Shown here in pieces: positions 1,584 to 37,351 of a DNA stretch of 64,000 nucleotides. Within the stretch, counting starts at the first letter, position 1. Each line of letters opens with the position of its first letter. The stretch spans positions 62,001 to 126,000 of the forward strand of contig NZ_BDBR01000002.1 in assembly GCF_001613085.1 (NCBI RefSeq), read 5' to 3'. The stretch comes from Nocardia salmonicida NBRC 13393 (GTDB lineage Bacteria > Actinomycetota > Actinomycetes > Mycobacteriales > Mycobacteriaceae). The notes below the pieces were generated by a model. The model ran no database searches. It was not told where the DNA came from and was given only the letters and a program-made list of their open reading frames with translations. The position numbers and the translations under genes were made by a program.

Positions 1584-2192
1584 TCACCCGTCGGCGGGCA
1601 GAAACGGAACAAGCGCCGCCTCGGCGGGCACCGCGAACGAGTTCAGGGCCATCGCGAGCATCGTGTACGTGCCGACGACGAACACCAGATCCATCAGCTG
1701 GTGTTCGTCGAACTCGGTCGCCAGGGCGTTCCAGGTGTCGTCGCGCACCACGCCGTCGGCGAGCAGTTCGTCGACGGCGGTGAGCAACCGCCGATCGGTC
1801 GCCGACCACCCCGGTGCGGCCGGGCCCTCCGAGATCCGGGTGATCTCCTCGGGTCCCAGACCCGCGCCCGCGGCCAGGATCACGTGCTGTGCCCACTCGT
1901 AGCCGCACCGCCGGACCGCCGCCACCCGGAGCACGAGCAGCTCCCGCTGCCGGGCCGTGAGAGTGGAGCCGGACAGGAAATGGCCGGTGAAGGTCAAGAA
2001 CGGTTTCGCCAGCGCCGGGTACCTGGCCAAGGTGCCCAGGAGATTGGCGCCGCTCTGGCGGCCGCCGGACGGCTCGGCCCCGGTGGCGGCGGCGCTGCGG
2101 AATCCGGCCAGGAAGGTAGTCATCTCGGTGGACCATTCCGCCGTCGGAAGAGGCGAGATGCGTGGCTGCGCGGGATCGTCCGTCGCGGTCAT
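1584..2192 (-). CDS. Carboxymuconolactone decarboxylase / AhpD-like protein
   Basis: A 202-residue protein of the CMD/AhpD helical fold. Residues 83-110 (RELLVLRVAAVRRCGYEWA..H) carry the family Glu (E99) and His (H103), with one cysteine (C96) instead of the CxxC of peroxidatic AhpD. Members act as decarboxylases, hydroperoxide reductases or have unknown roles. It is the last gene of the long minus operon that starts at 13576, and its ATG overlaps the stop of the SDR gene (ATGA). A role in clearing a peroxide or finishing a ring-cleavage step is inference only. Confidence 0.8.
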   Translation of the reverse strand: MTATDDPAQPRISPLPTAEWSTEMTTFLAGFRSAAATGAEPSGGRQSGANLLGTLARYPALAKPFLTFTGHFLSGSTLTARQRELLVLRVAAVRRCGYEWAQHVILAAGAGLGPEEITRISEGPAAPGWSATDRRLLTAVDELLADGVVRDDTWNALATEFDEHQLMDLVFVVGTYTMLAMALNSFAVPAEAALVPFLPADG

Positions 2193-2932
2193 GTGTTGCG
2201 CCCGCCGTTGACGCCGATGACCTGGCCGGTGAGATAGCCTGCTTCTTCGCTGACCAGGAACGCGCAGGTGGCGGCGACATCGGCGGGAGTGCCGATCCGG
2301 CCGACCGGGGTGCGCGCGATCTGGGCGTCGACGTCGATGAACCCGCGCTCCTCCGTCCGGCGCAGCATCGGTGTGTCGATGAATCCCGGCGGGATGGTGT
2401 TCACCGTGATCCCCCGCTTGGCGAATTCGAGCGCCAACACCTTGGTCAGGCCGACCACGCCCGACTTCGCCGAGACATAGCCCGCCAAACCGGCTGCGCC
2501 ACTGTGGATACTCGACGACGAGATGTTGACGATGCGGCCCCAGCCCTGCTCGATCATGTCCGGGATCACCGCCTGACAGCAGTCGAACGTCCCGGTGAGA
2601 TTGATCGCCAGGGCCCGGCTCCAGGCCGCCGCGGTGATGTCGAGGAACGGGCCGTCGAGGGTCAGTCCGGCGCTGTTCACCAACACCGTCGGGCGGCCGA
2701 GGCGGGCGCGTACTTCGGCGAGACCGGCATCGATGGCCGTGCGGTCGGTGACATCGACGGTCAGGCCGATGGCCTTGCCCCCGACGTTCTCGATCTCCGC
2801 CGCTGCCGCCTCGGCCGCGGCACCATCGATGTCGAAGATGGCGACGAGCGCGCCGTCCGCGGCCAGCCGGGTGCTGATCGCACCGCCGATCCCGGAGGCG
2901 CCGCCGGTGACAACGGCTGTGCGAGAACTCAT
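2189..2932 (-). CDS. SDR oxidoreductase, paralogue of 50874-51578
   Basis: Classical short-chain dehydrogenase/reductase of 247 residues, probably oxidising a hydroxy group made by the adjacent TauD-type dioxygenase. The cofactor loop TGGASGIG is at residues 9-16, NSAG near 86-89, catalytic Ser in the NISSSS run (138-141) and YVSAK with Y152 and K156. The ending ITGQ/LTGQ..GVNGGRNT is nearly the same as in the SDR at 50874, which also sits directly after a TauD gene. The start ATG overlaps the TauD stop (ATGA), and the stop overlaps the CMD start (ATGA), so all three are translationally coupled. Confidence 0.9.
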   Translation of the reverse strand: MSSRTAVVTGGASGIGGAISTRLAADGALVAIFDIDGAAAEAAAAEIENVGGKAIGLTVDVTDRTAIDAGLAEVRARLGRPTVLVNSAGLTLDGPFLDITAAAWSRALAINLTGTFDCCQAVIPDMIEQGWGRIVNISSSSIHSGAAGLAGYVSAKSGVVGLTKVLALEFAKRGITVNTIPPGFIDTPMLRRTEERGFIDVDAQIARTPVGRIGTPADVAATCAFLVSEEAGYLTGQVIGVNGGRNT

Positions 2933-3756
2933 TTGATCGCCTCCTCGCCCCGCAGGGTGGTGCGGTGCATCCGGCGAGGTTCGCGCCGGTCGAAGGCGCA
3001 GGCCCGGTGGACCAGGCCGCGGTTGTCCCAGATCACCAGGTCGCCGACCGACCAGGCATGGCGCAGCACACGATCCGGGGCCGTGGCTCGCTCCTGGAGT
3101 TCGGCCAGCAACGATCGGCCCGCTTCGGTGTCCATGCCGAGAACGTGCGAGGCGGTCGCCCCGAAAACCAGTGAGCGACGCCCTGTTTCGTGCTCCCACA
3201 CCAGCGGATGTTCGCGGACCGTCCGCGAAGCCCACTCGCTCAGCTGTTCCGCGGTGGGGTCCGGGTAGGTCAGCCGCTGAATGGCCTCGAAGGTATGGAT
3301 CACCCGCAGCTGGGCGAAATCACGCTTCTCGGTATCGGAGAGGTTGTCGTAGGCGGCGTAGGTGCTGGCGAACTCCGTTTCGCCGCCCTCGGTGGCGATC
3401 ACGTGGGCACTGAGCATCGACGCCTTCGCCGGGATGGCGTCCAGCGCCCCGTCCAGGTGCCAGAAATCGTTGCTGGCGAAGTACTCGGCATTCGGATTGT
3501 CCGGGTCGAAACTGATCTGCATGACATCGGGATTCGCGTAGAGCGGGAACTGCACCAGCTCGCCCAGGCGGCGCCCGAACGCCGCCTGCGCCTCGTCGCC
3601 GATGTGCAGTTCGCGAAACAGCAGGACGCCGTGCTCTTCGAGCGCCGCCATGCACGCCGCGGGGATATCGGGGTCGGTCAACAGCCGGTTGATGTCGGCG
3701 TCGAGCACTTCGACGCCGACCGTGTCGCTCAGCTTCTTCGTGGCAAGGGTTGGCAT
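2929..3756 (-). CDS. TauD/TfdA-type Fe(II)/2-oxoglutarate dioxygenase (copy 1)
   Basis: Non-haem iron, 2-oxoglutarate-dependent dioxygenase of 275 residues; the family hydroxylates unactivated carbon and releases succinate and CO2. The iron-binding pair H100-x-D102 lies in FWHLDGA, and the distal histidine and 2OG-binding arginine are probably in RRMHRTTLRG near the C terminus. WSVGDLVIWDNRG is shared with the second copy at 51575. Start 3756 has AGGAG five bases upstream; an in-frame ATG at 3768 overlaps the stop of the aldehyde dehydrogenase and is an alternative. The natural substrate is unknown; neighbours suggest an alicyclic or terpenoid acid. Confidence 0.88.
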   Translation of the reverse strand: MPTLATKKLSDTVGVEVLDADINRLLTDPDIPAACMAALEEHGVLLFRELHIGDEAQAAFGRRLGELVQFPLYANPDVMQISFDPDNPNAEYFASNDFWHLDGALDAIPAKASMLSAHVIATEGGETEFASTYAAYDNLSDTEKRDFAQLRVIHTFEAIQRLTYPDPTAEQLSEWASRTVREHPLVWEHETGRRSLVFGATASHVLGMDTEAGRSLLAELQERATAPDRVLRHAWSVGDLVIWDNRGLVHRACAFDRREPRRMHRTTLRGEEAIK

Positions 3757-3764
3757 CGCGCTCC

Positions 3765-5195
3765 TCATTCTTCCGGCGGTGCGTACCCGAGTACGCCCTT
3801 GATCTCGAGGTAGTCGTGGAAGCCGAATTCGCCCCATTCGCGACCGTTGCCGCTCTTCTTGTAGCCGCCGAAGGGGACCTCGAAGTCGAACCCGTCGTTG
3901 ATCGAGACCGACCCCGCTCTGATCCGGCGGGCCACCGCACGCGCCCGCGCCAGGTCGGTGCCTGCGACGAAGCCGGCCAGCCCGTAGTCGGTGTCGTTGG
4001 CGATGTCGACGGCGTGATCGAGATCGTCGTAGCCCAGGATCGTCAGAACCGGCCCGAAGATCTCCTCGCGGGCGATGGTCATGTCGTTGGTGACCTCGGC
4101 GAAGACCGTTGGCCGCACGAAGTAGCCGGTGCTCAGGCCCTCCGGCCGCCCCGGCCCGCCCGCCACCAGTGTCGCGCCTTCGCCGATGCCCTTCTGGATC
4201 AGCGCCTGGATCTTGTCGAACTGCGCGCCGGACACCACAGGGCCGATGGCGAAATCGCCCAGTGGATCACCGACGGTGACCCCCTCGGCCGCGCCACGGG
4301 CGACCTCGATCGCCTCGGCCATCCGCGAATGTGGCACCAGCATGCGCGAGGGCGCGCTACAGGTCTGGCCCGAGTTGAGCATCATGCTCACCACGCCCTT
4401 GCCGACGTTCTCGGCGAAGGCGTCGTCGTCGAGAATGATGTTGGGGCTCTTGCCGCCGAGCTCCTGGGTGACCCGTTTGACCCCGGCCGCCGCGTTGCGC
4501 GCGATGTCGATGCCCGCCCTGACCGACCCGGTGAAGGAGACCATGTCGACGTCGGGATGACTCGTCAGCGGCACGCCGACGGCGAGGCCGTCGCCCTGCA
4601 CCAGATTGAACACCCCGGCGGGAACGCCTGCGGCATCGAGGATCTCGGCAAAGATCTGCCCCGTGAACGGTGACAGTTCCGAGGGCTTGAGCACCATCGT
4701 GCAGCCGGTGGCCAGCGCCGGGAACACCTTCACCGCGATCAGGTTCAGCGGCCAATTCCAGGGGGTGATCAGCGCGCACACCCCGATCGGCTCCTTGACG
4801 ATCAGTGAGGCGCCGCGCTGTTCGTCGAAGCGGAACCGTTCGAGGATCTCGATCGCGGTGCTCAGCTGGCCCGCCCCCAGATCCACCTGGAATCCGTTGG
4901 CCAGGGCGGCCGGTGCCCCCAATTCCTCGATCAGCGCCGCCCCGAGGTCGGGGGCGCGCTTCTGATATTCGGCGAGGACGGCGCGCAACAGCGCGATCCG
5001 TTGCGCGGGATCGGTGCTCGACCAGCCGGGGAAGGCGGCGCGCGCGGCGGCGACCGCGCGATCCACATCTGCCGCCGTGCCGACGGCCACGGTGCCGCAC
5101 ACCTGTTCGGTGGCCGGGTTCACCACGTCGATGGTGCCTGGCTCGGCGGGGTCGATCCACTGTCCGTCGATATAGAACGTCAGATATTCACGCAT
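3765..5195 (-). CDS. Aldehyde dehydrogenase (NAD(P)+)
   Basis: Aldehyde dehydrogenase of 476 residues, the usual family length. Visible active-site residues are N147 in TPWNWPL, E245 in ELGGKSPN and nucleophile C279 in NSGQTCSAP. The start ATG at 5195 follows GAGGAAATC and agrees with the family N terminus (FYIDGQWI). It lies seven bases after the stop of the ThDP enzyme, so its substrate may be an aldehyde released by that lyase (inference). It ends against the TauD gene. Confidence 0.92.
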   Translation of the reverse strand: MREYLTFYIDGQWIDPAEPGTIDVVNPATEQVCGTVAVGTAADVDRAVAAARAAFPGWSSTDPAQRIALLRAVLAEYQKRAPDLGAALIEELGAPAALANGFQVDLGAGQLSTAIEILERFRFDEQRGASLIVKEPIGVCALITPWNWPLNLIAVKVFPALATGCTMVLKPSELSPFTGQIFAEILDAAGVPAGVFNLVQGDGLAVGVPLTSHPDVDMVSFTGSVRAGIDIARNAAAGVKRVTQELGGKSPNIILDDDAFAENVGKGVVSMMLNSGQTCSAPSRMLVPHSRMAEAIEVARGAAEGVTVGDPLGDFAIGPVVSGAQFDKIQALIQKGIGEGATLVAGGPGRPEGLSTGYFVRPTVFAEVTNDMTIAREEIFGPVLTILGYDDLDHAVDIANDTDYGLAGFVAGTDLARARAVARRIRAGSVSINDGFDFEVPFGGYKKSGNGREWGEFGFHDYLEIKGVLGYAPPEE

Positions 5196-5202
5196 GATTT
5201 CC

Positions 5203-6909
5203 TCACTGAGTTCCTTCCGCATACCAGGTGCGGAATTCGTCATAACTCGGCATTTCTTCCGAATTCGCCTTGGGGTCGACCGCGACATGGATGACGCCAG
5301 GTCGTCCGCTGGCGTAGGCGCGTTTGATGGCGGGGGCGATGTCCTCGTCGCGTTCGACATATTCGCCGTAGCAACCGAAACCCTCGGCGACCTTGTCCAA
5401 GCGGGTGTTCGTGCTCCAGTGGACGCCGGTCTCGAGCGAGCCCTGTCCATAGGTGCGCTTGTAGACGCCGACCTCGAGCCCCCACGCGTAGTCGACCGCG
5501 ACCACGCAGACCAGCGGAAGGTTCAGCCGTGCCGCGGTTTCCAGTTCGGCGATGTGGAACTGGAACGAGGAATCGCCGGTGATCAGCATCAGCGGCCGTT
5601 TCCCGCCGTCGGCCACACCGGCGCCGACGGCGTAGGGCAGGCCGGTGCCCAGATGCCCGAAGTTCTGATTCCACATCACGTCATGGGGTTTGGCCTGGGA
5701 GTAGGTCCAGCCGAAGATGGTGGTCGCGCCGCCGTCGCGCACCATGATGCCGTCGGCCGGGAACGACTTCGTCGCTTCCACGATCAGCCGCGCCGGGTGC
5801 ACCGGCGACATCCCCGACGGCGCGGTCTCGGCCAGTTCGGCGAGCTGGGCCGCGTCCTGTTCGATCCAGCCCGCGAGCTCGGGAGTGGGGGTGCGCGGGG
5901 TGTCGCGCAGTGCCTCGACCAGCTGCGGGACGATCGCGCGCAGGTCGCCGACCAGCGGCACGTCCACCGACCGGTTCACCCCGATGGCCTCGGGGTCCTG
6001 CTCGACGAGGATCCACTTGCGGTTGGCCTCGTTGGCGACCCAGTGCCTGCCGCGACCGTAGTGCACCGGCTCGCCCAATTCGGTGCCGATGGCCAGGCAC
6101 AGATCGGATTTCACCACCGCGTCGATCGCCGCCGCCGAGAAACCGTACGGGAAGGTGCGGTCCTCGAGCCCGGGGATGAAGGAGGTGCCGCCCGAGGTCT
6201 GGATGACCGGGCAAGCCATGGCCTCGGCGAGCGCGCGGACCGACGCGCCCGCGCGCGTGGTGTGCACGCCATGCCCCACGAGCAGCACGGGCTGGCTCGC
6301 CGCCCTGATGTACTCGACCGCCTCGGCGATCCGGTCCGGACCCGCTGTCTGCCCGACCAGGCGATAGGCCGAGGGCGCCAGCGCGGGCGCGACGTCGAGT
6401 TCTTCCTGGATCACGTGCGAGGGGTACTCGATGTACACCGGGCCCGGGGTGCCCGCGAGCGCCTTGCGCAGACCCTCGCGGATGACCTCGTCGGTCTGGT
6501 CGGCGTATTCGATACTGGCGCAATACTTCACCGACGGTTCGAACAGCGCGGCCTGCTTGACGAACTGGATACGGCCGCGCCGCACCCGCTGCTCGGTGAT
6601 CCGCGCGCGCTGCCCGCCGAGGAAGATCACCGGCGAGTTCTCGACCTTGGCGCACATCATCGCGCCGGCCAGGTTGGCGACGCCGGGGCCGAGCGTGCCG
6701 ATGCACACCGCGGCTTTTCCGGTCATCCGGGAGACGGCCTCGGCCATGAAACCGGCGGACTCCTCGTGGTGCGGGGCCACCACCTGCCAACCGCGTTCTT
6801 CGGCGAGGTGGAACATGTGCACGAAGTTCGGATCGGGAATGCCGAAGAGGGTGTTGATGCCTTCGGCCTCGAAGAGTTGCAGAATGCGTTCGTAGACTTT
6901 AACCGACAT
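5203..6909 (-). CDS. Thiamine diphosphate-dependent lyase/carboligase, acetolactate synthase-like
   Basis: A 568-residue protein with the three-domain plan of the acetolactate synthase / 2-hydroxyacyl-CoA lyase / benzoylformate decarboxylase superfamily. The cofactor-activating Glu is E49 in PHHEESAGFMAEA. The pyrophosphate-domain motif begins GDSSFQF, but the canonical Asn-Asn end is replaced by VDYAWG, so metal coordination differs from standard members. The start follows GGAGGG inside the end of the preceding SDR (11-base overlap). Cleavage of a 2-hydroxyacyl compound to an aldehyde, passed to the aldehyde dehydrogenase next door, fits context but is not proven. Confidence 0.85.
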   Translation of the reverse strand: MSVKVYERILQLFEAEGINTLFGIPDPNFVHMFHLAEERGWQVVAPHHEESAGFMAEAVSRMTGKAAVCIGTLGPGVANLAGAMMCAKVENSPVIFLGGQRARITEQRVRRGRIQFVKQAALFEPSVKYCASIEYADQTDEVIREGLRKALAGTPGPVYIEYPSHVIQEELDVAPALAPSAYRLVGQTAGPDRIAEAVEYIRAASQPVLLVGHGVHTTRAGASVRALAEAMACPVIQTSGGTSFIPGLEDRTFPYGFSAAAIDAVVKSDLCLAIGTELGEPVHYGRGRHWVANEANRKWILVEQDPEAIGVNRSVDVPLVGDLRAIVPQLVEALRDTPRTPTPELAGWIEQDAAQLAELAETAPSGMSPVHPARLIVEATKSFPADGIMVRDGGATTIFGWTYSQAKPHDVMWNQNFGHLGTGLPYAVGAGVADGGKRPLMLITGDSSFQFHIAELETAARLNLPLVCVVAVDYAWGLEVGVYKRTYGQGSLETGVHWSTNTRLDKVAEGFGCYGEYVERDEDIAPAIKRAYASGRPGVIHVAVDPKANSEEMPSYDEFRTWYAEGTQ

Positions 6910-7825
6910 GCGTGCTGCCCTCCATGGCTGTCGCGAAGCTCTTGGTGATGTGGTCGAGATGGCCGGAGGGAACCACCGGCAGGATCCACGGGTTCTCGGT
7001 CGCGCGGATCTCGTCGATCCGTGCGCCCACCTCCTCGATCGACCAGGACGGTTGATACACCCCGGGGGTCTCGGCGATGAACGCTCGCGCCACCCGTCCG
7101 GCGATCGACACCAGCATTTCGCCGGTGATCGAACAGGATTCGTGCGCGAGCCACCCCACCACCGGCGCCGCCAGCTCCGGGTCCATGGGCGGGTAGGCCG
7201 AGGTGTCGATGCCCTCGGCGAGGCGGGTGAGCGCGGCGGGAACGATCACGTTGCAGCGGACGCCGTGCTCGGCGCCCTCGAGCGCGACCACGTTCGACAG
7301 TCCGATCAGACCTGCCTTGGCCGCGCCGTAGTTGGCGACCCGGTGGTTGCCGTACAGCCCGCCGATCGACGAGGTGAGGACCACCCGGCCGTATCCGGCG
7401 GCGCACATCAGCGGGAAGGCGGGCCGCACCACATGGAACGCGCCGCGCAGGTGGACATCGAGCACGGCGTCGAAGTCCTCGTAGGTCATCTCCGAGAGTG
7501 GCGCGTACCGGTTGTTGCCCGCATTGTGGACGATGATGTCGATCCGGCCGAAGGCGTCGAGCGCGGTCCGCACGATCGCCTGACCGCCCTGCGCGGTCGC
7601 CACCGAATCGGTGCAGGCCACCGCCGTACCGCCGGCGTCGGTGATCTCGCGGACCACTGTCTCGGCGACTCCGGCGTCGCCGCTGTCGCCGCTGATGGTG
7701 CTGCCGGGGTCGTTGACGACGACCCGGGCCCCCTTCGCGGCGAGCAGCAACGCGTAGGCGCGGCCCAATCCTCTTCCGGCGCCGGTGATCACGGCGACTC
7801 TGCCCTCGAAACCGGGTTCAGACAT
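6899..7825 (-). CDS. SDR, multifunctional-enzyme-2-like 3-hydroxyacyl-CoA dehydrogenase type
   Basis: Short-chain dehydrogenase of 308 residues with an extended C terminus. TGAGRGLG binds the cofactor, VNDPG follows strand beta-2, HNAGNN and the TSS...YGAAK catalytic set are present. The GRVAVITGAGRGLGRAYALLLAAKGA start and the VVNDPG turn are typical of the dehydrogenase domain of peroxisomal-type multifunctional enzyme 2, which oxidises 3-hydroxyacyl-CoA. It sits between the Baeyer-Villiger enzyme and the ThDP lyase in the long minus operon. Confidence 0.87.
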   Translation of the reverse strand: MSEPGFEGRVAVITGAGRGLGRAYALLLAAKGARVVVNDPGSTISGDSGDAGVAETVVREITDAGGTAVACTDSVATAQGGQAIVRTALDAFGRIDIIVHNAGNNRYAPLSEMTYEDFDAVLDVHLRGAFHVVRPAFPLMCAAGYGRVVLTSSIGGLYGNHRVANYGAAKAGLIGLSNVVALEGAEHGVRCNVIVPAALTRLAEGIDTSAYPPMDPELAAPVVGWLAHESCSITGEMLVSIAGRVARAFIAETPGVYQPSWSIEEVGARIDEIRATENPWILPVVPSGHLDHITKSFATAMEGSTHVG

Positions 7826-7849
7826 GGTGCGCTCCGTTCACCGCGCTCC

Positions 7850-9691
7850 TCATCGGGCCGGTTCGGGCGGGGTGCCGAGGGCAAGGCCGGGCAGCTCGCC
7901 GGTGTCGCGCCACGCCTGGAGCAGATCCTCGAAGGCGTAGAAGCCGGGCCAGTACGGGTCACCGAGGTGGGAGCGGATCTGCTGCTCGCCCTCGTTGTTG
8001 TAGTAGCCGGGGGTGCACTCGCGCTGGAAGTTGCTGTTGTCGATCGCGCTCTCGCGCACGGTGGTGCACCACTGCTCCTGCGCCTCGGCGGTGGGTTCCA
8101 CCGTGGTCGCGCCACGGGCCAGCGTTTCCTTGATGATGTAGGCGATGTGGGTGGCCTGCTGCTCGAACATGGCCGTCGTGCTCGCGGTCACCCCGCCCTG
8201 GACGAAGCCGGTGAAGAACTGGTTCGGGAAGCCGGTGGTCATCGTGCCGTGCAGGGTGCGATATCCCTTGGCCCAGTGGTCGTAGAGCGAGAGCTCGTCG
8301 CGGCCCGCGAAGGGGGCGATGCCGAAGCGCCGGTCGAGGTCGGTGGTGATCTCGAAGCCGCTGGCGAAGATGATGCAGTCGACCTCGTGTTCGACACCGT
8401 CGGCGACGATGCCCCCGGCGGTGATCCGTTCGACGCCCTTGGTGCCCGACACGTCGACGAGGGTGACGTTGGGGCGGTTGAACGTCGGCAGATAGTCGTC
8501 GTTGAAACAGGGCCGCTTGCACAGGAATCGGTAGTACGGCTTGAGCGCCTCCGCTGTGGCCGTATCGGTGACGACGGCATCGACACGGTCGCGCACCCGC
8601 TGCATCGCCTGATAGTCCAGCAGCTCCCGCAGCTCCATGAACTTCTCCGGCGTCAGCTCCGCCCAGCCGCCGGTGCGGTCGAGGTGATCGCGCACATTGC
8701 GGCTGACCTCGGTCCATCCGTCGCAGACCAGATCGTTCTGACCGGGACCGTAGGCTTCGAACGCGCCGGTGTGGAAGTTGCGACGCAACTCCTCCTGCCA
8801 ACCCGGCTGCAAGGTCTGTGCCCACGCGGGGTCGGTCGGCACGTTGCCGCGCTCGTAGATGTAGGACGGGGTGCGCTGGAAGACGGTCAGGTGCTGCGCG
8901 GAGCGGGCGAGGTGGGGGATCGACTGCACCCCGCTGGCGCCGGTGCCGATGATCGCCACCCGCTTGTCGGCGAGCTTGTCCAGCCCGCCGCGCATGTCGC
9001 CGCCGGTGTAGGCGTAGTCCCAGCGCGCGGTGTGGAAAGTGTGGCCCGCGAAATCGGCGATCCCGGGGATGCCGGGGAGCTTGGGCCGGTTGAACGGGCC
9101 CTGGCACATGATGACGAAGCGCGCGCGGATCTCGTCGCCCCGGTTGGTGCCGATCCGCCAGCGCTGAATCGACGCGTCCCACGTCATCGAACGGGTCAGG
9201 GTGCCGAAGATCGCCTTCTCGTAGAGGCCGAAGTGCTTGCCGATGCGTTGGCAGTGCTCGAAGACCTCGTCGCCGAAGGAGTACTTCTGCTGGGGGATGT
9301 AGCCCACTTCCTCGAGCAGCGGCAGGTAGCAGTAGCAGTCGGTGTCGCACTGGATGCCGGGGTAGCGGTTCCAGTACCAGGCGCCGCCGAAATCACCGGC
9401 GTGCTCGATGATGCGGAAGTTCTCCACCCCGGCACCGGTGATCCGGGCCGCGGTGACGAGTCCGGCCAGTCCGCCGCCGAGGATCGCGACATCGATGTCC
9501 TGCGAGATCGGCGGCCGCGCTACGACCGGGGTGTAGGGATCGGACTCGTGGTACTCGGCGAATTCCGCCTCGGCCTCCACGTACTGCTGCTGGCCCTCCG
9601 GGCGGATCCGCTTGTCGCGCTCGGCGAGATACCTCGCTCGGAGCGCGTCGCGATCGACCTCGGGCGTCTGCGTCGGTTCGCAGGTGTGCAT
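7850..9691 (-). CDS. Type I Baeyer-Villiger monooxygenase
   Basis: FAD- and NADPH-dependent monooxygenase of 613 residues that would insert oxygen next to a ketone, giving an ester or lactone. The Baeyer-Villiger fingerprint FxGxxxHxxxW is exact at residues 214-224 (F214, G216, H220, W224). Two Rossmann motifs flank it: LGGGLAG near 71-77 and IGTGASG. An N-terminal extension of about 60 residues (RARYLAERDKRIRPEG) is typical of the longer cyclopentadecanone/steroid monooxygenase branch. The start ATG at 9691 follows GAGGAATTCGCC; open frame upstream overlaps the Rieske gene and is not coding. Position beside a lactonase-like gene supports a ketone-to-lactone-to-hydroxyacid route. Confidence 0.93.
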   Translation of the reverse strand: MHTCEPTQTPEVDRDALRARYLAERDKRIRPEGQQQYVEAEAEFAEYHESDPYTPVVARPPISQDIDVAILGGGLAGLVTAARITGAGVENFRIIEHAGDFGGAWYWNRYPGIQCDTDCYCYLPLLEEVGYIPQQKYSFGDEVFEHCQRIGKHFGLYEKAIFGTLTRSMTWDASIQRWRIGTNRGDEIRARFVIMCQGPFNRPKLPGIPGIADFAGHTFHTARWDYAYTGGDMRGGLDKLADKRVAIIGTGASGVQSIPHLARSAQHLTVFQRTPSYIYERGNVPTDPAWAQTLQPGWQEELRRNFHTGAFEAYGPGQNDLVCDGWTEVSRNVRDHLDRTGGWAELTPEKFMELRELLDYQAMQRVRDRVDAVVTDTATAEALKPYYRFLCKRPCFNDDYLPTFNRPNVTLVDVSGTKGVERITAGGIVADGVEHEVDCIIFASGFEITTDLDRRFGIAPFAGRDELSLYDHWAKGYRTLHGTMTTGFPNQFFTGFVQGGVTASTTAMFEQQATHIAYIIKETLARGATTVEPTAEAQEQWCTTVRESAIDNSNFQRECTPGYYNNEGEQQIRSHLGDPYWPGFYAFEDLLQAWRDTGELPGLALGTPPEPAR

Positions 9692-9741
9692 GGCGAATTC
9701 CTCGGTGTGATGCGGTGTTTCGGGTGAGCGGGGCACGGGAC

Positions 9742-11124
9742 TCAGGCGAGATCGCGCGGTGCGCCGGTGCCCATGTAGGTGGCCAGGTTGTGGTGCAGGT
9801 TGACGACGCTGCGTTCGCGATACGGGTTGGGCTTGGGTCCGGAGAACCCGCGCGTCTTCATGCCCCGTTGGACCGCGGCCATGTTGGAGAAGTCCTGGGG
9901 CAGCACCGTGCGCCACGCCGGATCGTCCTCGGCGGTGTACTCCCACTCGGTCTTCGGCTCCTGGCCCGCCGGGAACAGTTCGTAGACCGCGGCTTCGAAG
10001 ATGCACTTGTCCGGGTCGTAGCCGAAGGGTCTGGCGCTGTAGCAGAGCATGTTGTTGAGCGCGTGACCGATCTGGAAGTTGGGAAAGATCTGCCATGCGG
10101 TACCGGCGGCGGCGACCACCTGCGGGTCCACCGTCGGCCACACCACTCCGCGGTCGGCGTCGTAGTTCCTGGCCGATTGCAGCCAGTGCTTGAGCACCTG
10201 ATCGGCCGGCGTGCCCTCCGGCAGTTCGGCTACTAGGCGATTCGCGGCGTCGACCAGGGTCCTCGTGGTGTTGGTGTTGGCGTTCTCCCAGGTGAAGTTC
10301 TGTAGTTCGGCCGTGGACATGCGGGCGTCCGGCCCGGCCCCGAGCCGCAATTTCGCCTGGTTCTCCTCCATACCTTTCGGTGCGTCGTAGCCGATGTTGC
10401 TGTGCTTGCCCTGGGCGCGCGACCATCCGAGGAAGTTGCCGAAGTTCATGAACTCGGGGTGGGTGTAGGGCACGTGGTAGGTCTCCATGAAGGCCTCCAG
10501 CGCGACCTTCCAATTGCAGTCGAAGACCAACCAGCGCCGCCAGCGGTAGCGCATGTTCTCCAGCTGGAACGGATCGAGCAGGCTCGCGGCCGGTTCCAGA
10601 TAGTCCCGCAGCGATTCGGCGTCGGGGTCCATGTTGATCCAGATCCACCCGCCCCAGGTGTCGACCCTGACCTGGGAGAGCCGAGTCTTGTCCGGGGTCA
10701 GACCGCGCGGCCAGTCCTGCTGCTCGGCCGCGAAGGTGTTGTTGCCCTCCAGGTCGTAGCGCCAGCCGTGGAAACCGCAGACGAATTGCTTGCAGCTGCC
10801 GTGTGTATCGCGCGAGTACGGGGCGGTGTCGACCAGCCTGCGACCCCGATGCGAGCAGACGTTGTAGTACGCGCGAAGGGTGTCCGGTCCCGACCGCGTC
10901 ACGATGATCGAGTCGTCGAGGATGTCGTAGGTGAGGAAATCTCCGACCTTCGCCAACTCCTCGACCCGGCCGACCTGCTGCCACACCTTGGCCCACAGTT
11001 TGTCGCGTTCGGCGCGGGCGTACTCCTCGGACAGATAGGCCTCGACGCCGATGGTGCGCGGCGTCGACAGCGCTTCTTCGGTTGCGGCGACCGCGGATTC
11101 GATGTTGTCGACAGTGTCGGTCAT
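9742..11124 (-). CDS. Rieske non-haem iron oxygenase, large (alpha) subunit
   Basis: Ring-hydroxylating or demethylating oxygenase alpha subunit of 460 residues. The Rieske [2Fe-2S] ligands are C90-x-H92 and C116-x-x-H119; the 23 residues between H92 and C116 exceed the usual 15-17. The mononuclear iron site has H217 and H222 in METYHVPYTH. No beta subunit, ferredoxin or reductase is adjacent, so electrons must come from elsewhere, perhaps a shared ferredoxin-reductase system. Start ATG overlaps the upstream SDR stop (ATGA). Substrate unknown. Confidence 0.92.
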   Translation of the reverse strand: MTDTVDNIESAVAATEEALSTPRTIGVEAYLSEEYARAERDKLWAKVWQQVGRVEELAKVGDFLTYDILDDSIIVTRSGPDTLRAYYNVCSHRGRRLVDTAPYSRDTHGSCKQFVCGFHGWRYDLEGNNTFAAEQQDWPRGLTPDKTRLSQVRVDTWGGWIWINMDPDAESLRDYLEPAASLLDPFQLENMRYRWRRWLVFDCNWKVALEAFMETYHVPYTHPEFMNFGNFLGWSRAQGKHSNIGYDAPKGMEENQAKLRLGAGPDARMSTAELQNFTWENANTNTTRTLVDAANRLVAELPEGTPADQVLKHWLQSARNYDADRGVVWPTVDPQVVAAAGTAWQIFPNFQIGHALNNMLCYSARPFGYDPDKCIFEAAVYELFPAGQEPKTEWEYTAEDDPAWRTVLPQDFSNMAAVQRGMKTRGFSGPKPNPYRERSVVNLHHNLATYMGTGAPRDLA

Positions 11125-11981
11125 GGCTTCTCCTCACGGGTGATGGCGGCTCGGAACGCGGCGTCCTCGAGGAACAGGGAGGTGTGGTCGGCGTCGAGGT
11201 GGGTCCACTTGAGGTCGAGCCCGCCGTCGACCAGCAGGGTCTGGCCCGTGATGTAGGTCGACAGGTCCGAGAGCAGGAACAAGATCGCGCCCGCCTGCTC
11301 GTCAGGTCGACCGCGTCGGCCCATGGCGATGGCCCGGCGGTCGCGCTCGGCGTCCTCGCCGACATAGGTGGCCGAGGCCGGGGTCTTGGTCACTCCGGGG
11401 GCCACGGCGTTCACCCGGATTCCGTCGGCGGCGAGTTCCACGGCCAGTGTCCGGGTCGCGGCCACCAGCGCGGCCTTGGCTGTGCCGTAGCCGATATGGA
11501 AGGGCGCGGTGTTCATCCCGCTGATCGAGGAGATCGACACGATCGAGCCGGGCCGCTGTCGTGCTTTCAGTTCGGCGGCCACAGCCTGACTCATGAAGAA
11601 CATCGTTTCCAGGTTCTGGGTGAACAACGCGCGCCAATCCGCGCGGCTCACCCGCAGCGCGGGCATCCACGTCGCCGGCGCGGCGCCGCCGGCGACATTG
11701 ACCAGCCCGTGCAGCTCGCCCTCGGTTGCGCGGATCTGCGCGAGCACCGTGGCGATGCCGTCGTCGGTCGAGGCGTCGGCGGCCACCGGAACAATCGAGA
11801 GCCCCTGCGCCACCAGCGGATCGACGTGAGTGGCGAGGTTGTCCGGAGATCGGCTCACCGCGATCACGGTGGCCCCGGCCCGTGCGACCATCTCGACCAC
11901 CGAGGTCCCGATCCCGCCGCCCGCCGCGCCGGACACGACGACGACGCGTCCGGTGAGATCGGTCGGCACGGCCCGGCTCAT
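11121..11981 (-). CDS. SDR oxidoreductase
   Basis: Short-chain dehydrogenase of 286 residues. The cofactor loop is unusual, SGAAGGGIG, with one extra glycine compared with TGxxxGIG. NVAGG, the SISSISG serine strand, YGTAK and ITGQTLLVDGG are all present. The C terminus extends about 30 residues past the SDR core. It overlaps both neighbours (ATGA with the Rieske gene downstream and with the propeller gene upstream), so its product probably acts directly before or after the Rieske oxygenase. Confidence 0.87.
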   Translation of the reverse strand: MSRAVPTDLTGRVVVVSGAAGGGIGTSVVEMVARAGATVIAVSRSPDNLATHVDPLVAQGLSIVPVAADASTDDGIATVLAQIRATEGELHGLVNVAGGAAPATWMPALRVSRADWRALFTQNLETMFFMSQAVAAELKARQRPGSIVSISSISGMNTAPFHIGYGTAKAALVAATRTLAVELAADGIRVNAVAPGVTKTPASATYVGEDAERDRRAIAMGRRGRPDEQAGAILFLLSDLSTYITGQTLLVDGGLDLKWTHLDADHTSLFLEDAAFRAAITREEKP

Positions 11982-13576
11982 GGCGTGCGTCGCAGCGCGA
12001 GCACGCTGCCCTCGGCGTCGGCCGACAGGTACAGCGTGCCGTCGGGTCCGGCGGTGATCCCGGCGAAGGGGCCCTGCGGTCCGGAGAACGGCGGCAATCC
12101 GCGCAGCGGCTTGGGCGTGACTCCGGGCGGAGCGCCGACCGGCAGGTTCTCAGCGAGCGTGGTGCGCACCTTGGTCGCGAGATCCACGCTGATCAGCGAC
12201 TTGCTGCCGACATCGACGACATAGAGCGCGCCCTCGCGCACCAGGATTCCCTGGGGCTGCTCCAGGCCGTCCACCACCGTGTCGACGCCGGCGCTGCTCA
12301 CCGAAACGATGCGTCCCGCACCGGATTCGGCGACCAGGCAGGTCCCGTCCGGTGTGAACGCGACGCCGATCGGCTGGTGCAGGTCGGCGGCCAGCTGTTC
12401 GACGCGGCCGCCGGATCGCACGGCCAGCACCCTGCCCGTGCCGAACTCCGTGGCGACGATGTCACCGCTGGGTGCGACCGCGACACCGTAGAGCTGGTCG
12501 AGTTCGTCGGCCAGCACCTCGCTCTCCTGGGTCGCGGGCCGGTAGCGCGTGATCTGACCGCCCGAGGTGGTGACGATGAATTCGCCTGCGCCGACAGCGG
12601 TTACGCCGCGGATGAAGCCCGGATAGCCGGGGCTGAACAGCATCCCCACCGTCTCCGGCGCGCTTCCCGGCCGCAGGACATAGAAGTAGGTGCCGTCGGC
12701 GACGTAGAGTTCGCCGTCGCTGTCGACGGTGAGATCCAGCGGCCAGTTCAGGCCGCCGGGCAGGGTTGTGCGGGTCCGGCCGCCGTCGAGGATCTCGGTG
12801 ATCTCGCCGGTGAAGTTCGAGACGAACAGCCTGCCGTCGACGAAGGTGCAGTTGTCCAAACCGGGGTTCAGCGTGGCCAGCACGGTGCGCTCACCGGTGC
12901 GGGGATCGATGCGCAGCACCTCGCCGGTACTGACCTGGGTGGAGACGATGTTGCCCGCCGCGTCGAACTTCACCGAGTCGGGGACACCGAGATCGCCCAC
13001 CACTCGTTCGGGTTCGCCCCCGAGCGGGTCGATGCGCCAGATGTCGTTGGTGCCCATCACCGGGTAGTAGAGGAGCCCGTCGGGGCCGACCTCCATGGCG
13101 TTGGGCATCGCGAGGTTCTCCGCGAGAACGCGGGGCTCACTGCCGTCGGTGAACAGTTCCATCAGTCGCCCGCCGACACGACATTCGTTGACGAACAATC
13201 TGTTCTGATGCACGGTGATGCCGTTCGCGCTCGGCAGGTCGTCGCGCAGGACCCGAGTCCGGCCGTCGGCGCCGCGCATGCTGACGCGCCCGTCCATCAC
13301 CTCGGTGGCGAACAGATTGCCCTGGTCGTCGAAGGCCAGATCGTCGGGCGCGATGATGTCGCCGCCCTTGGCGCTGATCGTCTCGAGTCGACCGGTCGTG
13401 ATGTCGAGTGCGCTGATCTGGCTGCCGGTCACCTGGGCGACATAGACGCGCCCGTCGGGGCCGGTGCGCAGACCGTTCGCGCCGAAGAGCCGGCTCGGCG
13501 GAGTGAGGCGTTCCAAGCTCCACCCTTCGGCGAGGCTCATTGCTGTGGTGTTGATGTAGCGCGCCCCTTGCGTCAC
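11978..13576 (-). CDS. SMP-30/gluconolactonase-like beta-propeller protein
   Basis: A 532-residue protein made of repeated NHL/SMP-30-type blades (GPDGRVYVAQ, AFDDQGNLFATE, GPDGLLYYP, DSDGELYVAD, APSGDIVATE, TPDGTCLVAE, GPDGTLYLS). This is longer than single-propeller lactonases of about 300 residues and may hold two propellers. Family members include calcium-dependent lactonases; hydrolysis of the lactone made by the Baeyer-Villiger enzyme in the same operon is a reasonable inference. The GTG start at 13576 follows GGAGGAGG by seven bases; the frame remains open further upstream but would run through the promoter. No signal peptide is seen. First gene of the long minus operon. Confidence 0.8.
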   Translation of the reverse strand: MTQGARYINTTAMSLAEGWSLERLTPPSRLFGANGLRTGPDGRVYVAQVTGSQISALDITTGRLETISAKGGDIIAPDDLAFDDQGNLFATEVMDGRVSMRGADGRTRVLRDDLPSANGITVHQNRLFVNECRVGGRLMELFTDGSEPRVLAENLAMPNAMEVGPDGLLYYPVMGTNDIWRIDPLGGEPERVVGDLGVPDSVKFDAAGNIVSTQVSTGEVLRIDPRTGERTVLATLNPGLDNCTFVDGRLFVSNFTGEITEILDGGRTRTTLPGGLNWPLDLTVDSDGELYVADGTYFYVLRPGSAPETVGMLFSPGYPGFIRGVTAVGAGEFIVTTSGGQITRYRPATQESEVLADELDQLYGVAVAPSGDIVATEFGTGRVLAVRSGGRVEQLAADLHQPIGVAFTPDGTCLVAESGAGRIVSVSSAGVDTVVDGLEQPQGILVREGALYVVDVGSKSLISVDLATKVRTTLAENLPVGAPPGVTPKPLRGLPPFSGPQGPFAGITAGPDGTLYLSADAEGSVLALRRTP

Positions 13577-13704: not shown

Positions 13705-13733
13705 TACAAGTATTGTTATCCTTGTAAGGATTG
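13705..13733 (-). promoter_or_regulatory. Probable GntR operator, site 1
   Basis: TACAAGTATTGTTATCCTTG followed by TAAGGATTG. It contains a perfect inverted repeat ATCCTT-GT-AAGGAT (13718-13731) and a second one TTACAAG...CTTGTAA (13704-13727). It lies about 130 bases upstream of the lactonase-like gene, the first of the long minus operon. The same element precedes the GntR gene, its divergent dehydrogenase and the acuI-like gene. Regulator assignment is inference from proximity. Confidence 0.65.
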
Positions 13734-14054: not shown

Positions 14055-14906
14055 CTAGATACGTGCGCGGTGGCTGGATTGGATCGACTGGCGTGACATG
14101 GCCGACGAGGCGTTGACGACGCCGCCGTCGAAACGTTCGAGCACCACTGCCTGCGTCGCGGCCAGGTGTGCGCGCGCCAGCCGCTCGGCCTCCTCCGCTC
14201 GACCCGCGGCGATCTCGTCGACGAGCCGGCGATGGAAGCGCACGGCGTCTTGCGCGTCGGCCTCGGAGGGGTACTCGCCGCGTCGGGTCGTCGCTTCCGC
14301 CCAGGCTTGCTCCTGTGCTGACCACAGGGCCACGAGCGTGCTGACGACGTAGCGGACGGTCACGTTCGGCGTGAACGAGACGACGAGATCGTGGAACTCG
14401 CGGGCGGATTGGGTGAAGGCCACGCCGTCGCCGACCATGGTGGCCGAGGCGTCGACGGCGGCCTGGAGGGCGGGGACGACCACTTCGGCGCGGTCCTCGC
14501 GCCGGGCGCATTCGGCGGCACACATCGGCTCGAGCGCCTGTAGTCCGGACGCGAGATCGCCCAGTGTCACCCGGGCGCCCTGCAGGGCGAGGCCGAGGTG
14601 ATAGGCCGCCGAGACCTCGTCGGGTCGGTGTACCTCGGCGCCTCCGACATTGCCGCGGCGGACGGTGACCAAGCCCTCGGTCTCCAGGATGCGCAGCGAT
14701 TCCCGGATCGAGGGATAGCTGACGCCGAAGTCCTTGACCAGTTGATCCTGGGTCGGGAGACGGTAGTTGTCGTCGGAGAGGATGTGGTCGCGCAGTTCCG
14801 CCGCGACGGTTTCCGCGATGCGGCGCTGCGGAACCCGGCCCCGTCTCGGGGTGGTCAACGAACCCGCCGATCGTCCATGGCGGGAGTGTAATTGATCGCG
14901 GGTCAA
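14055..14906 (-). CDS. GntR-family transcription regulator, FadR/FCD type
   Basis: A 283-residue regulator. A winged helix-turn-helix spans about residues 29-95 (LPTQDQLVKDFGVSYPSIRESL, then ILETEGLV). The C-terminal FCD domain follows, with three histidines (REFHDLV, VRFHRRLVDE, ARAHLAAT) that usually hold a metal at the effector site. FCD regulators commonly respond to organic acids or acyl-CoA. The start is uncertain: TTG at 14906 is given, TTG at 14858 is possible, and neither has a good ribosome site. Two operator-like repeats lie directly upstream between this gene and the divergent acyl-CoA dehydrogenase gene, suggesting autoregulation. Confidence 0.88.
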   Translation of the reverse strand: MTRDQLHSRHGRSAGSLTTPRRGRVPQRRIAETVAAELRDHILSDDNYRLPTQDQLVKDFGVSYPSIRESLRILETEGLVTVRRGNVGGAEVHRPDEVSAAYHLGLALQGARVTLGDLASGLQALEPMCAAECARREDRAEVVVPALQAAVDASATMVGDGVAFTQSAREFHDLVVSFTPNVTVRYVVSTLVALWSAQEQAWAEATTRRGEYPSEADAQDAVRFHRRLVDEIAAGRAEEAERLARAHLAATQAVVLERFDGGVVNASSAMSRQSIQSSHRARI

Positions 14907-14910: not shown

Positions 14911-14964
14911 TCAAGTATTGCTATCCTTATGCTGTCAAATATTGCTATCCTTATGAGGATTAAC
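14911..14964. promoter_or_regulatory. Probable GntR operators, sites 2 and 3 (tandem)
   Basis: TCAAGTATTGCTATCCTTAT (14911-14930) is repeated at 14935-14954 with one change (TCAAATATTGCTATCCTTAT), a 24-base period. The second copy continues to an imperfect inverted repeat ATCCTT-AT-GAGGAT (14947-14960). The pair lies in the short gap between the divergent GntR gene and the acyl-CoA dehydrogenase gene at 14977, so binding would control both. Confidence 0.75.
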
Positions 14965-14976
14965 TACAGTCTGATC

Positions 14977-16137
14977 ATGGATTTCACGATGGGTACGGCT
15001 GCCGCGGACCTGCGGGGGGAGCTGCGCCGACTGGTGGACGAGCACGTCCCGGCTGATTTTCTGGGCGCCTTCACCGACGATCCGGCCGATTTCGCTGCTG
15101 CCCAGCGGTTTTCCCGTCTGCTCGCCGAACGGGGTCTGCTCTGTCTGGCCTGGCCCGCCGAGTTCGGCGGCCGCGATGCCTCGCTCTGGGAACAGACCGT
15201 GGTGCGCGAGGAGATGTGGGCGCATCACGAGCCCCGCGGCGCGCAATACATGGGCGTGAACTGGGTGGGGCCGACGATCATGCGACACGGCACCGCGGCC
15301 CAGCAGCGGACCCATCTGCCCCCGATCGCGCGCGGGGAGGTGATCTGGTGTCAGGGTTTCAGCGAGCCGGATTCGGGCTCGGACCTGGCGTCGTTGCGCA
15401 CCGCGGCCCGCCGCGACGGTGACGGCTGGCGGATCTCCGGTCAGAAGGTCTGGACCTCCTACGCCGCGATGGCCCAGTGGTGCTTCCTGCTGGCCCGGAC
15501 CTCGACCGGGGAACGCAAGCAGTCCGGTCTGACGATCTTTCTCGTCCCGATGTCCAACCCGGCCATCGTCGTTCGCCCGATACGCTCCATGATCGGCCCG
15601 CACCACCTCAACGAGGTCTTCTTCGACGATCTGCGGGTCACCGAAGCCGATGTGCTCGGCCCGGTCGACGAGGGCTGGAAAGTGGTCCAGGAGGTGCTGG
15701 CCTTCGAGCGGGTGGGTATCGCCCGCTACGCCCGGTGCGAACGTCTGCTGCGCGCCGCGCCCACGGCGCTCGGTGACCGGTGGGACGAACTGCCCGCCGA
15801 ACTGCGTGGCCGGTGGGCGCGCATGCTGACCCATTGCCGGCGGGCTCGGTTGCTCGCCTATCGGGTGCTCGCGCTGCAACGTGTCGGCCGGGTACGTCCC
15901 AGCGACGCCGCGGCCTATCGGATCGCGGTGACCACCCTCGACCAGGACAGCGCCGAGGTGCTGGTGGAGATCGCCGCCTACGCCGGATCGACCGAATCCT
16001 CGAATGATGAAGGGCTTCAACGGTTCCGCCGCGAGTCCGAGGAGCACTGGCGCTATTCGCAAGCCGCGACCGTGGCCTCGGGAAGTATCGAGATGCAGCG
16101 GATTCTGCTGGCCCGAGCATTGCTGGCGGTGTCGTGA
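14977..16137 (+). CDS. Acyl-CoA dehydrogenase, alpha subunit (pair 1)
   Basis: FAD-dependent acyl-CoA dehydrogenase of 386 residues that introduces an alpha-beta double bond. WCQGFSEPDSGSDLASL is the mid-region signature and GSIEMQRILLARALL the C-terminal FAD/oligomer motif. E244 in LAFERVG is at the place where isovaleryl-CoA dehydrogenase and FadE26-type alpha subunits carry the catalytic base. The neighbour at 16134 lacks this Glu, so the two probably form an alpha2beta2 heterotetramer. Starts at 14953 or 14989 are possible; the transcript may be leaderless since the operator reaches 14964. Confidence 0.9.
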   Translation: MDFTMGTAAADLRGELRRLVDEHVPADFLGAFTDDPADFAAAQRFSRLLAERGLLCLAWPAEFGGRDASLWEQTVVREEMWAHHEPRGAQYMGVNWVGPTIMRHGTAAQQRTHLPPIARGEVIWCQGFSEPDSGSDLASLRTAARRDGDGWRISGQKVWTSYAAMAQWCFLLARTSTGERKQSGLTIFLVPMSNPAIVVRPIRSMIGPHHLNEVFFDDLRVTEADVLGPVDEGWKVVQEVLAFERVGIARYARCERLLRAAPTALGDRWDELPAELRGRWARMLTHCRRARLLAYRVLALQRVGRVRPSDAAAYRIAVTTLDQDSAEVLVEIAAYAGSTESSNDEGLQRFRRESEEHWRYSQAATVASGSIEMQRILLARALLAVS

Positions 16138-21836: not shown

Positions 21837-21867
21837 CATCGGCCTCTCTGCGTATGTCTCGGCGCCG

Positions 21868-23064: not shown

Positions 23065-23077
23065 AACTGCTCCTGAA

Positions 23078-24061: not shown

Positions 24062-24097
24062 CGCCGCCATCGTGTCGTCCATGGCGAGCACATTACT

Positions 24098-24130
24098 TCA
24101 ATCCTATTAAGGATAGCAATGCTTGACTGT
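24098..24130 (-). promoter_or_regulatory. Probable GntR operator, site 4
   Basis: Read on the minus strand: CAGTCAAGCATTGCTATCCT followed by TAATAGGATTGAA. It matches sites 1-3 and includes the inverted repeat ATCCT-nnnn-AGGAT (24101-24114). It lies in the 76-base gap before the acuI-like gene and probably controls the acuI, MaoC and ligase genes. Confidence 0.7.
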
Positions 24131-35141: not shown

Positions 35142-35180
35142 GTACTGTTATCGACATCAGCCGACAAGGAGGCCCTCCGG

Positions 35181-37341: not shown

Positions 37342-37351
37342 GGAGCTCGCT

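Follow-up and report, generated by a model that had tools for sequence, protein, structure and literature searches.

Here we describe a ten-gene operon in a 64,000-nucleotide stretch of Nocardia salmonicida NBRC 13393 DNA (contig NZ_BDBR01000002.1, positions 62,001 to 126,000; the whole stretch is hereafter the window; genome size 8.25 Mb). With a probability of about 0.55, this operon forms the ring-opening part of a regulon for the breakdown of a bulky compound that is probably polycyclic and terpenoid- or steroid-like. This reading draws on sequence and comparison: the families of the encoded enzymes, their conserved order, an operator-like site shared with acyl-CoA genes, and the exchange, in related genomes, of a thiamine diphosphate (ThDP)-dependent enzyme plus an aldehyde dehydrogenase (ALDH) for a luciferase-like enzyme (LLM).

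The operon runs from 13540 to 1584 on the minus strand, with every frame intact, in the order (5' to 3') propeller, SDR1, Rieske oxygenase, Baeyer-Villiger monooxygenase (BVMO), SDR2, ThDP enzyme, ALDH, TauD, SDR3 and CMD (SDR, short-chain dehydrogenase; see the table). The successive gaps are -4, -4, 50, 24, -11, 7, 8, -4 and -4 bases. An earlier prediction from the letters alone (the original prediction) had described ten overlapping or nearly overlapping genes that act together; all ten are present within gaps of -11 to +50 bases, and their conserved order, shared operator-like site and matching presence across genomes argue for joint action. Pfam backs the family of all ten proteins, in agreement with each name given there. 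The extent proposed, 1584-13576, was right in that the operon is real, but 13576 is an alternative GTG start of the propeller gene, for which we use 13540, and the functional unit is larger: the operator-like site, two further operons and the ThDP/LLM exchange had been missed.

The same gene order was sought in other genomes, as the original prediction had proposed. We compared 80 loci, the best 80 of 344 ThDP relatives in named genomes, so that the counts describe the company of the ThDP gene and not its prevalence; genes were counted at 50% identity or more, and order required the same strand and succession, with intervening genes allowed. All ten genes keep order and strand in 15 loci, the first seven in 55 and Rieske-BVMO-SDR2 in 75, which indicates that the arrangement is not due to chance. 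TauD, SDR3 and CMD had been listed as equal members; judged by their presence (34, 32 and 31 loci) they are accessory and optional. The loci span Nocardia, Rhodococcus, Williamsia, Actinomadura, Frankia relatives, Amycolatopsis, Streptacidiphilus, Mycobacterium and other actinobacteria, and include two proteobacterial loci and one acidobacterial locus. In Proteobacteria the conserved core, as seen in these genomes, is smaller. Sphingobium RAC03 has BVMO, Rieske and ThDP genes adjacent, with an alpha/beta hydrolase gene and an SDR alongside and no propeller annotated in the stretch shown, where the gene table is incomplete; the Sphingobium trio is carried on plasmids. Steroidobacter keeps BVMO-Rieske-ThDP-ALDH together, and a ThDP search of 59 genomes of its order matched Steroidobacter only. 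A Halieaceae genome has Rieske-ThDP plus a divergent propeller. In the acidobacterial locus (L130), Rieske (just 38% identical), BVMO and ThDP genes lie within about 11 kb in changed order, and relatives of MaoC and the acyl-CoA ligase ACSL1 sit between them.

Co-occurrence was assessed in 298 genomes of the window's order, with E limits of 1e-60 for Rieske, 1e-200 for BVMO, 1e-120 for ThDP, 1e-100 for LLM and 1e-170 for ALDH. The Rieske protein was found in 39 genomes and BVMO in 46, including all 39; in the seven with BVMO only, its score was at most 769 bits. The ThDP enzyme occurs in 31 genomes, every one among the 39, leaving eight with Rieske and BVMO and no ThDP match (G088, G199, G207, G222, G230, G262, G281 and G297). 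The LLM gene was first seen between Rieske and BVMO in three of these, and a search of all 298 genomes returned exactly the eight ThDP-less Rieske genomes and none else, with LLM between Rieske and BVMO in 8/8. An ALDH ortholog is present in 31 of the 38 other Rieske genomes: in 30/30 with ThDP and in one of the eight with LLM (G230), where it lies far outside the operon. Across these genomes ALDH thus tracks the ThDP gene.

All eight LLM genomes share one genus code, g2. In 32/32 g2 loci the BVMO is nearer to named Mycobacterium (best identity at least 78%) than to any other named locus (67% at most), and we therefore call these genomes Mycobacterium. Trees were built from 36 loci, one for each Rieske genome except the window's own, G026 and G045. 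The ThDP/LLM label needs three changes on the BVMO tree, two of them forced by well-supported branches, and four on the Rieske tree. In these genomes ThDP and ALDH are thus lost and LLM stands in their place, as the outcome of at least two exchanges. The best LLM matches among Protein Data Bank (PDB) sequences are alkanal monooxygenase/luciferase alpha (top 96.8 bits), enzymes that oxidise carbonyls with reduced flavin and oxygen. Because LLM replaces ThDP plus ALDH, we place the role of the pair beside a carbonyl: ThDP and ALDH probably break the bond there, and LLM would do so instead, giving the same product in one oxidative step. A gene annotated as LLM in Rhodococcus USK13 was considered as the exchanged enzyme and not counted, being just 33.5% identical over 173 residues.

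A 16-base operator-like site, AAGTATTGCTATCCTT, occurs in four copies in the window with 0-1 mismatch: one before the ten-gene operon, two in the interval from gntR to an acyl-CoA dehydrogenase operon, and one directly before an MDR-MaoC-ACSL1 operon. At up to three mismatches, 0.03 sites are expected by chance in the window, and the whole genome holds five matches, four being the window sites and the fifth having three mismatches. The classical FadR-like pattern TNGTN(1-4)ACNA was found in 3 of 44 upstream regions, and k-mers there revealed the shared site. Among relatives, the site lies within 450 bases upstream of the SGL propeller gene in 44 of 70 loci at up to three mismatches, in 22 at up to one and in 14 exactly; 200 shuffled motifs, searched at up to three mismatches in the same regions, hit a mean of 0.1 loci and a maximum of 4. 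These 70 are the loci, out of the 80, in which the SGL match exceeded 80% coverage and 300 or more bases were available upstream.

The regulon also has support from gene neighbourhoods. In Mycobacterium, ACADa, the first gene of the acyl-CoA dehydrogenase (ACAD) operon, lies between CaiB and ThDP in 13/32 loci and after CaiB in 4/8 LLM loci, and in 2/32 loci MDR and MaoC follow ALDH before the stretch ends; the acyl-CoA link thus has support besides the operator-like site. Because of the shared site and these neighbourhoods, we therefore group into one putative regulon the ten-gene operon, gntR, ACADa-ACADb-ECH-ACADc-ACADd (14929-20117; ECH, enoyl-CoA hydratase) and MDR-MaoC-ACSL1 (24091-20130). 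The GntR/FCD-type protein is the likely regulator. In a set of 100 loci, in which at least three contigs, judged by equal length, are counted twice (L039/L069, L040/L096 and L042/L100) and two genomes (G045 and G036) contribute two loci each, ACADa is present in 36 and ACADb in 31. We favour a product that is steroid- or terpenoid-like, or dicarboxylic in some other way, because the dehydrogenases show similarity to PimC and IpdE2, with scores all below the NCBIfam cut-offs (623.85 for pimC_large and 450 for IpdE2). IpdE1-IpdE2 and similar pairs are heterotetramers of steroid breakdown (PMC8399759). A fused CaiB-lyase gene without an operator-like site in the window is a neighbour in 39 of the 100 loci, and a relative of its CaiB half follows SDR2 in 28/32 Mycobacterium loci. 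In locus L104 the CaiB and HpcH/CitE matches are separate (18395 and 20516).

The ThDP protein has residues E49, D446 and D473 invariant in 14/14 aligned sequences (structure and motif alignments used hand-picked, less redundant subsets of loci); by the alignments, E49 corresponds to the catalytic Glu and D446/D473 to the Mg ligands of the GD...N/D motif. It falls below the cut-off of all 25 best NCBIfam models shown, among them acetolactate synthase (274.2 bits, cut-off 509), oxalyl-CoA decarboxylase (OXC; 211, cut-off 557) and 2-hydroxyacyl-CoA lyase (192.6, cut-off 600). By phmmer against the PDB it scores 211 bits with acetolactate synthase, about 187 with OXC/2-hydroxyacyl-CoA lyase, about 148 with benzaldehyde lyase and 120 with cyclohexane-1,2-dione hydrolase. 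A carbon-carbon lyase is the probable function; the predicted structure (mean pLDDT 65.4) was too poor for a fold search. The ThDP/LLM exchange would fit an acyloin, a 1,2-dione, a 2-oxo acid or a 2-hydroxyacyl-CoA alike.

The last of these substrates defines an alternative, in which the ThDP enzyme is a 2-hydroxyacyl-CoA lyase. It would release formyl-CoA along with an aldehyde, which ALDH would turn into the acid, and CaiB would reuse the formyl-CoA, as in a bacterial alpha-oxidation of branched acids after ring opening. OXC and 2-hydroxyacyl-CoA lyases are indeed among the best PDB matches (183-188 bits), formyl-CoA transferase models match the CaiB half with 184-187 bits, and ThDP is the next query gene in 6 of the 28 Mycobacterium loci where CaiB follows SDR2. 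However, catabolic acetolactate synthase scores higher on the ThDP protein (211 bits), and succinate-glutarate CoA-transferase is a better fit for the CaiB half (203.6 bits), with all models below cut-off. Moreover, CaiB is kept in 8/8 LLM loci that have no ThDP gene, and the neighbour that ThDP retains in the three proteobacterial loci seen is the Rieske gene and no CoA-dependent enzyme. We consider this lyase function unlikely, and cleavage beside a carbonyl on the way to an acid remains our preferred role for ThDP and ALDH.

The Rieske protein has a complete cluster motif (CxH...CxxH) and His-His-Asp iron site by sequence, with C90, H92, C116, H119, E214, H217, H222 and D411 invariant in 18/18 sequences. 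In PMC7948474, the bridging Glu and iron His of the carnitine monooxygenase CntA are E205-H208-H213. The spacing of E214-H217-H222 is the same, and the bridging Glu that characterises Group V (carnitine monooxygenase-like) Rieske enzymes is present. CntA also has a Cys pair beside the iron site, Cys206 and Cys209 (PMC7948474 and PMC10952381), which is absent from the window protein; T215 and V218 stand there instead, V218 being invariant in the 18 sequences. Ring hydroxylation, as originally predicted for this enzyme, agrees with its family but is just one option, given the Glu-bridged site and the lack of a beta subunit gene adjoining the alpha subunit.

A substrate that is aromatic or small and alicyclic, with the Rieske enzyme starting on an aromatic ring, was weighed on this evidence. 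Hydroxylation of aromatic rings is common for Rieske enzymes, the PDB matches include biphenyl and phthalate dioxygenases, and pimeloyl-CoA dehydrogenase-like enzymes fit simple dicarboxylates. Nevertheless, carnitine monooxygenase is the best PDB match of this alpha subunit, which shares its Glu-bridged site and has no adjacent beta subunit, and no ring-cleavage dioxygenase was found among the 30 Pfam-scanned proteins of the first 44 kb (a subset of the genes there; hereafter the scanned proteins). The best PDB match of the BVMO, 5mq6, also speaks against it, this entry being the polycyclic-ketone monooxygenase PockeMO. We therefore consider an aromatic or small alicyclic substrate unlikely.

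The BVMO contains the motif FxGxxxHxxxW[PD] exactly (FAGHTFHTARWD, at residue 214), as originally predicted, and Rossmann GxGxx[GA] motifs at 72 and 249. It thus has the sequence features of a type I enzyme and is predicted to form esters or lactones from ketones. Among NCBIfam models it scores best with PtlE, (neo)pentalenolactone D synthase (668.8 bits, across almost its full length), and TauD has a weak match to PtlD (80.4 bits), a 2-oxoglutarate dioxygenase that acts with the PtlE BVMO in pentalenolactone biosynthesis. The operon could by analogy make or modify a secondary metabolite. Both scores are, however, far under the cut-offs (1100 and 550), no terpene synthase, polyketide synthase or non-ribosomal peptide synthetase was seen among the scanned proteins, and the regulon is connected with genes for acyl-CoA dehydrogenases, ligases and hydratases. 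Additionally, the Rieske gene is present in 32 of 34 sampled g2 genomes, unlike a strain-specific metabolite. A biosynthetic role is highly improbable on this evidence, and catabolism is the reading that we retain.

The propeller protein scores 139.6 bits with the NCBIfam ScyD/ScyE model NF033206 (cut-off 80) and 67.2 bits with Pfam SGL (cut-off 26.3). Its structure model (pLDDT 93.8) comprises two propellers, as read from the strands and fold matches. N or D recurs about every 41 residues in the first propeller (N22, D66, N106, N147 and D229 are invariant in 34/34 sequences and D188 in 31/34), and the second has no such ring by eye. Fold and conserved polar ring make the protein a candidate lactonase; Foldseek returned mostly LRP-type propellers, which is uninformative on function. 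A ThDP enzyme and a ScyD/ScyE-family propeller co-occur in the window (5203-6909 and 11978-13540), and the scytonemin cluster likewise pairs the two.

We propose the following pathway for the regulon. An SDR would make a ketone, the BVMO would convert the ring ketone to a lactone, and the propeller (perhaps the alpha/beta hydrolase in Sphingobium) would open it. The Rieske enzyme may hydroxylate next to a carbonyl and SDRs adjust the oxidation state, after which the ThDP enzyme, or LLM, would cleave the carbon-carbon bond beside that carbonyl to give an aldehyde that ALDH oxidises to the acid. A CoA ligase or CoA-transferase, the paired acyl-CoA dehydrogenases and the MaoC hydratase could then pass the acids to beta-oxidation, and all three operons are probably under substrate-responsive control of the FCD-type GntR regulator. 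The order of steps is tentative, and for the substrate, whose class the genes suggest, a terpenoid-like or alicyclic ketone is a fair guess.

Several observations weigh against this proposal. The original prediction saw the propeller as a lactone opener, which agrees with Pfam SGL, but non-lactonase NHL propellers match the fold at least equally: lactonases reach Z 27.9 (8djf) and 27.6 (3dr2) and designed and NHL propellers up to 30.3. N22, moreover, presumably occupies the place of the Glu ligand of SMP-30. For the Rieske enzyme, neither a ferredoxin nor a reductase turned up in the scanned proteins. A reversed-pattern control of the operator-like site gave 8 whole-genome matches at up to three mismatches, and therefore only sites with 0-1 mismatch carry weight. 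The motif itself came out of the window sequence and the k-mers of 44 upstream regions that were among those later counted; hence 44/70 confirms conservation and is no blind test, the whole-genome count being the independent check. The scanned Mycobacterium loci gave no match to the site, and in three inspected by eye a different GntR-like gene adjoins the propeller. In 4/31 ThDP genomes (G148, G195, G226 and G273) ThDP lies away from the operon with ALDH still inside. Only two to four independent exchanges can be counted, too few for significance: matched-pair sign tests on two and three well-supported pairs, all in the expected direction, gave p of 0.5 and 0.25. Finally, among NCBIfam models LLM scores highest with an F420-dependent LLM oxidoreductase (113.8 bits against a cut-off of 166.9) and lower with luciferase alpha (84 bits against 600), and it may therefore not be a flavin monooxygenase. 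The F420-type match and the four genomes with unlinked ThDP make our confidence in the catabolic ring-opening reading more cautious.

No published pathway joining a Rieske oxygenase, BVMO, ThDP enzyme and propeller was found in the open-licence PMC literature, in line with the original prediction, which knew of none with exactly this set; subscription journals lie outside that literature and its texts were covered in part, which makes this weak evidence of absence. The enzyme families are all known, and the combination, the operator-like site and the ThDP/LLM exchange appear undescribed. Catabolic clusters for cyclic ketones (cyclohexanol, cyclododecanone and camphor) are similar in uniting an alcohol dehydrogenase, BVMO, lactone-opening enzyme and ALDH. 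None of these clusters is known to include a Rieske oxygenase, a ThDP enzyme, a propeller or a heteromeric acyl-CoA dehydrogenase. Cyclohexane-1,2-dione hydrolase (2pgn) shares the ThDP superfamily and cleaves a ring beside a carbonyl, but it matches the window enzyme with just 120 bits, as against 211 for acetolactate synthase. PtlE is the closest curated BVMO model, and its biosynthetic context is not shared by the window.

Steroid and bile-acid catabolism as described in PMC8399759 involves paired acyl-CoA dehydrogenases, MaoC-domain hydratases and a Rieske oxygenase (KshA), as here. Unlike the window, that text has no word starting with Baeyer or thiamin; a further difference is that no extradiol dioxygenase was found among the scanned proteins. 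The Sphingobium Chol11 bile-salt pathway was considered because Sphingobium plasmids carry the BVMO-Rieske-ThDP trio, and was rejected, the available parts of PMC8399759 and PMC8540908 having no such words. In Caenibius tardaugens, according to PMC12239570, BVMO and LLM are redundant for the same Baeyer-Villiger step on progesterone and replace each other within a pdc cluster of four genes (BVMO, LLM and two regulators). Here, in contrast, the luciferase-like enzyme substitutes for ThDP plus ALDH, and the pdc cluster, with BVMO and LLM as its only shared enzymes, was rejected as a match.

Many soil bacteria share these breakdown genes, Nocardia, Rhodococcus and Mycobacterium among them. Of the 298 genomes sampled from the order, 39 have the Rieske-BVMO pair, and 32 of these belong to the Mycobacterium-like genus g2 (32/34 sampled); the operon is also seen in relatives of Frankia and Actinomadura and in some Proteobacteria. 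Such wide recurrence implies a natural substrate that is common and for whose breakdown no description was found in the literature searched. The exchange makes the central step testable, as the same acid is expected from the same carbonyl compound, and the operon would supply a BVMO, Rieske and ThDP enzyme set for bulky ring substrates. More speculatively, and we think improbably, this is the first gene set by which bacteria break down very common polycyclic isoprenoids (plant triterpenoids or bacterial hopanoids), with rings opened by ThDP-dependent retro-acyloin or 1,2-dione cleavage and luciferase-type replacement more than once; if true, ThDP-dependent cleavage in terpenoid ring opening would be new chemistry.

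Table. Features of the ten-gene operon and the linked acyl-CoA genes (window coordinates; loci, number of the 80 compared loci with a relative of at least 50% identity)
Feature	Position	Strand	Evidence	Loci
CMD, carboxymuconolactone decarboxylase/AhpD-like, accessory	1584..2192	-	Pfam CMD 43.3 bits	31
SDR3, FabG-like dehydrogenase, accessory	2189..2932	-	Pfam adh_short_C2 208.2 bits	32
TauD/TfdA Fe/2-oxoglutarate dioxygenase, accessory	2929..3756	-	Pfam TauD 200.3 bits	34
ALDH, aldehyde dehydrogenase	3765..5195	-	Pfam Aldedh 498.8 bits	75
ThDP-dependent enzyme (acetohydroxyacid synthase/OXC/benzaldehyde lyase superfamily)	5203..6909	-	three Pfam TPP domains	80
SDR2, short-chain dehydrogenase	6899..7825	-	Pfam adh_short 141.4 bits	76
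BVMO, type I, PtlE-like, N-terminal extension	7850..9691	-	motif FAGHTFHTARWD; NCBIfam PtlE 668.8 bits	79
Rieske non-heme iron oxygenase alpha subunit, Glu-bridged site	9742..11124	-	Pfam Rieske and Ring_hydroxyl_A	77
SDR1, short-chain dehydrogenase	11121..11981	-	Pfam adh_short_C2 189.5 bits	72
SGL propeller, 520 aa, tandem beta-propeller (SMP-30/NHL/ScyE-like), candidate lactonase	11978..13540	-	Pfam SGL 67.2 bits; NCBIfam ScyE 139.6 bits	71
Operator-like site before ten-gene operon	13708..13723	+	AAGTATTGCTATCCTT, 1 mismatch	
GntR/FCD-type regulator	14055..14906	-	Pfam GntR and FCD	48
Two operator-like sites between gntR and acyl-CoA dehydrogenase operon	14913..14928, 14937..14952	+	0 and 1 mismatch	
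ACADa and ACADb, paired acyl-CoA dehydrogenase subunits	14929..17084	+	ACADa pimC_large 182.8 bits; ACADb Pfam Acyl-CoA_dh_1	
Enoyl-CoA hydratase, crotonase part from about residue 101	16802..17863	+	NCBIfam crotonase models, below cut-off	
ACADc and ACADd, second acyl-CoA dehydrogenase pair	17860..20117	+	pimC_large 221.9 bits; IpdE2 108.2 bits	
ACSL1, acyl-CoA ligase	20130..21839	-	FadD3 227.2 and CasG 173.1 bits, all models shown below cut-off; 60% identical in L130	
MaoC-like hydratase	21868..23076	-	Pfam FAS1_DH_region 89.5 bits; 69% identical in L130	
MDR zinc-binding oxidoreductase, first gene of MDR-MaoC-ACSL1 operon	23078..24091	-	Pfam ADH_N and ADH_zinc_N	
Operator-like site directly before MDR-MaoC-ACSL1 operon	24109..24124	-	1 mismatch	
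Fused CaiB CoA-transferase and HpcH/CitE lyase, 692-aa frame	26642..28720	+	Pfam CoA_transf_3 and HpcH_HpaI	

Further along the window, a third adjacent acyl-CoA dehydrogenase pair (34857-37341, plus strand) is followed by an enoyl-CoA hydratase gene (37316-38134), with a divergent TetR gene at 34352-35017. These acyl-CoA genes adjoin an ABC importer of the branched-chain amino acid type (38903-43791, plus strand; binding protein, permease and two ATPases), which could take up the substrate or an acid product. Five of the 13 Rieske-domain matches of the source genome lie within about 130 kb of one contig (contig C2, 46-175 kb), and the window therefore seems part of a larger catabolic island. 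The closest named relative in the genome scan is Nocardia alba, whose ThDP enzyme is 98% identical. G045 and G036 (loci L049 and L050) carry a second Rieske-BVMO pair, with Rieske 68-69% and BVMO 71-72% identical to those of the window; it has no SDR1, SDR2, ThDP or ALDH gene in its 20-kb stretch and perhaps belongs to a paralogous pathway.

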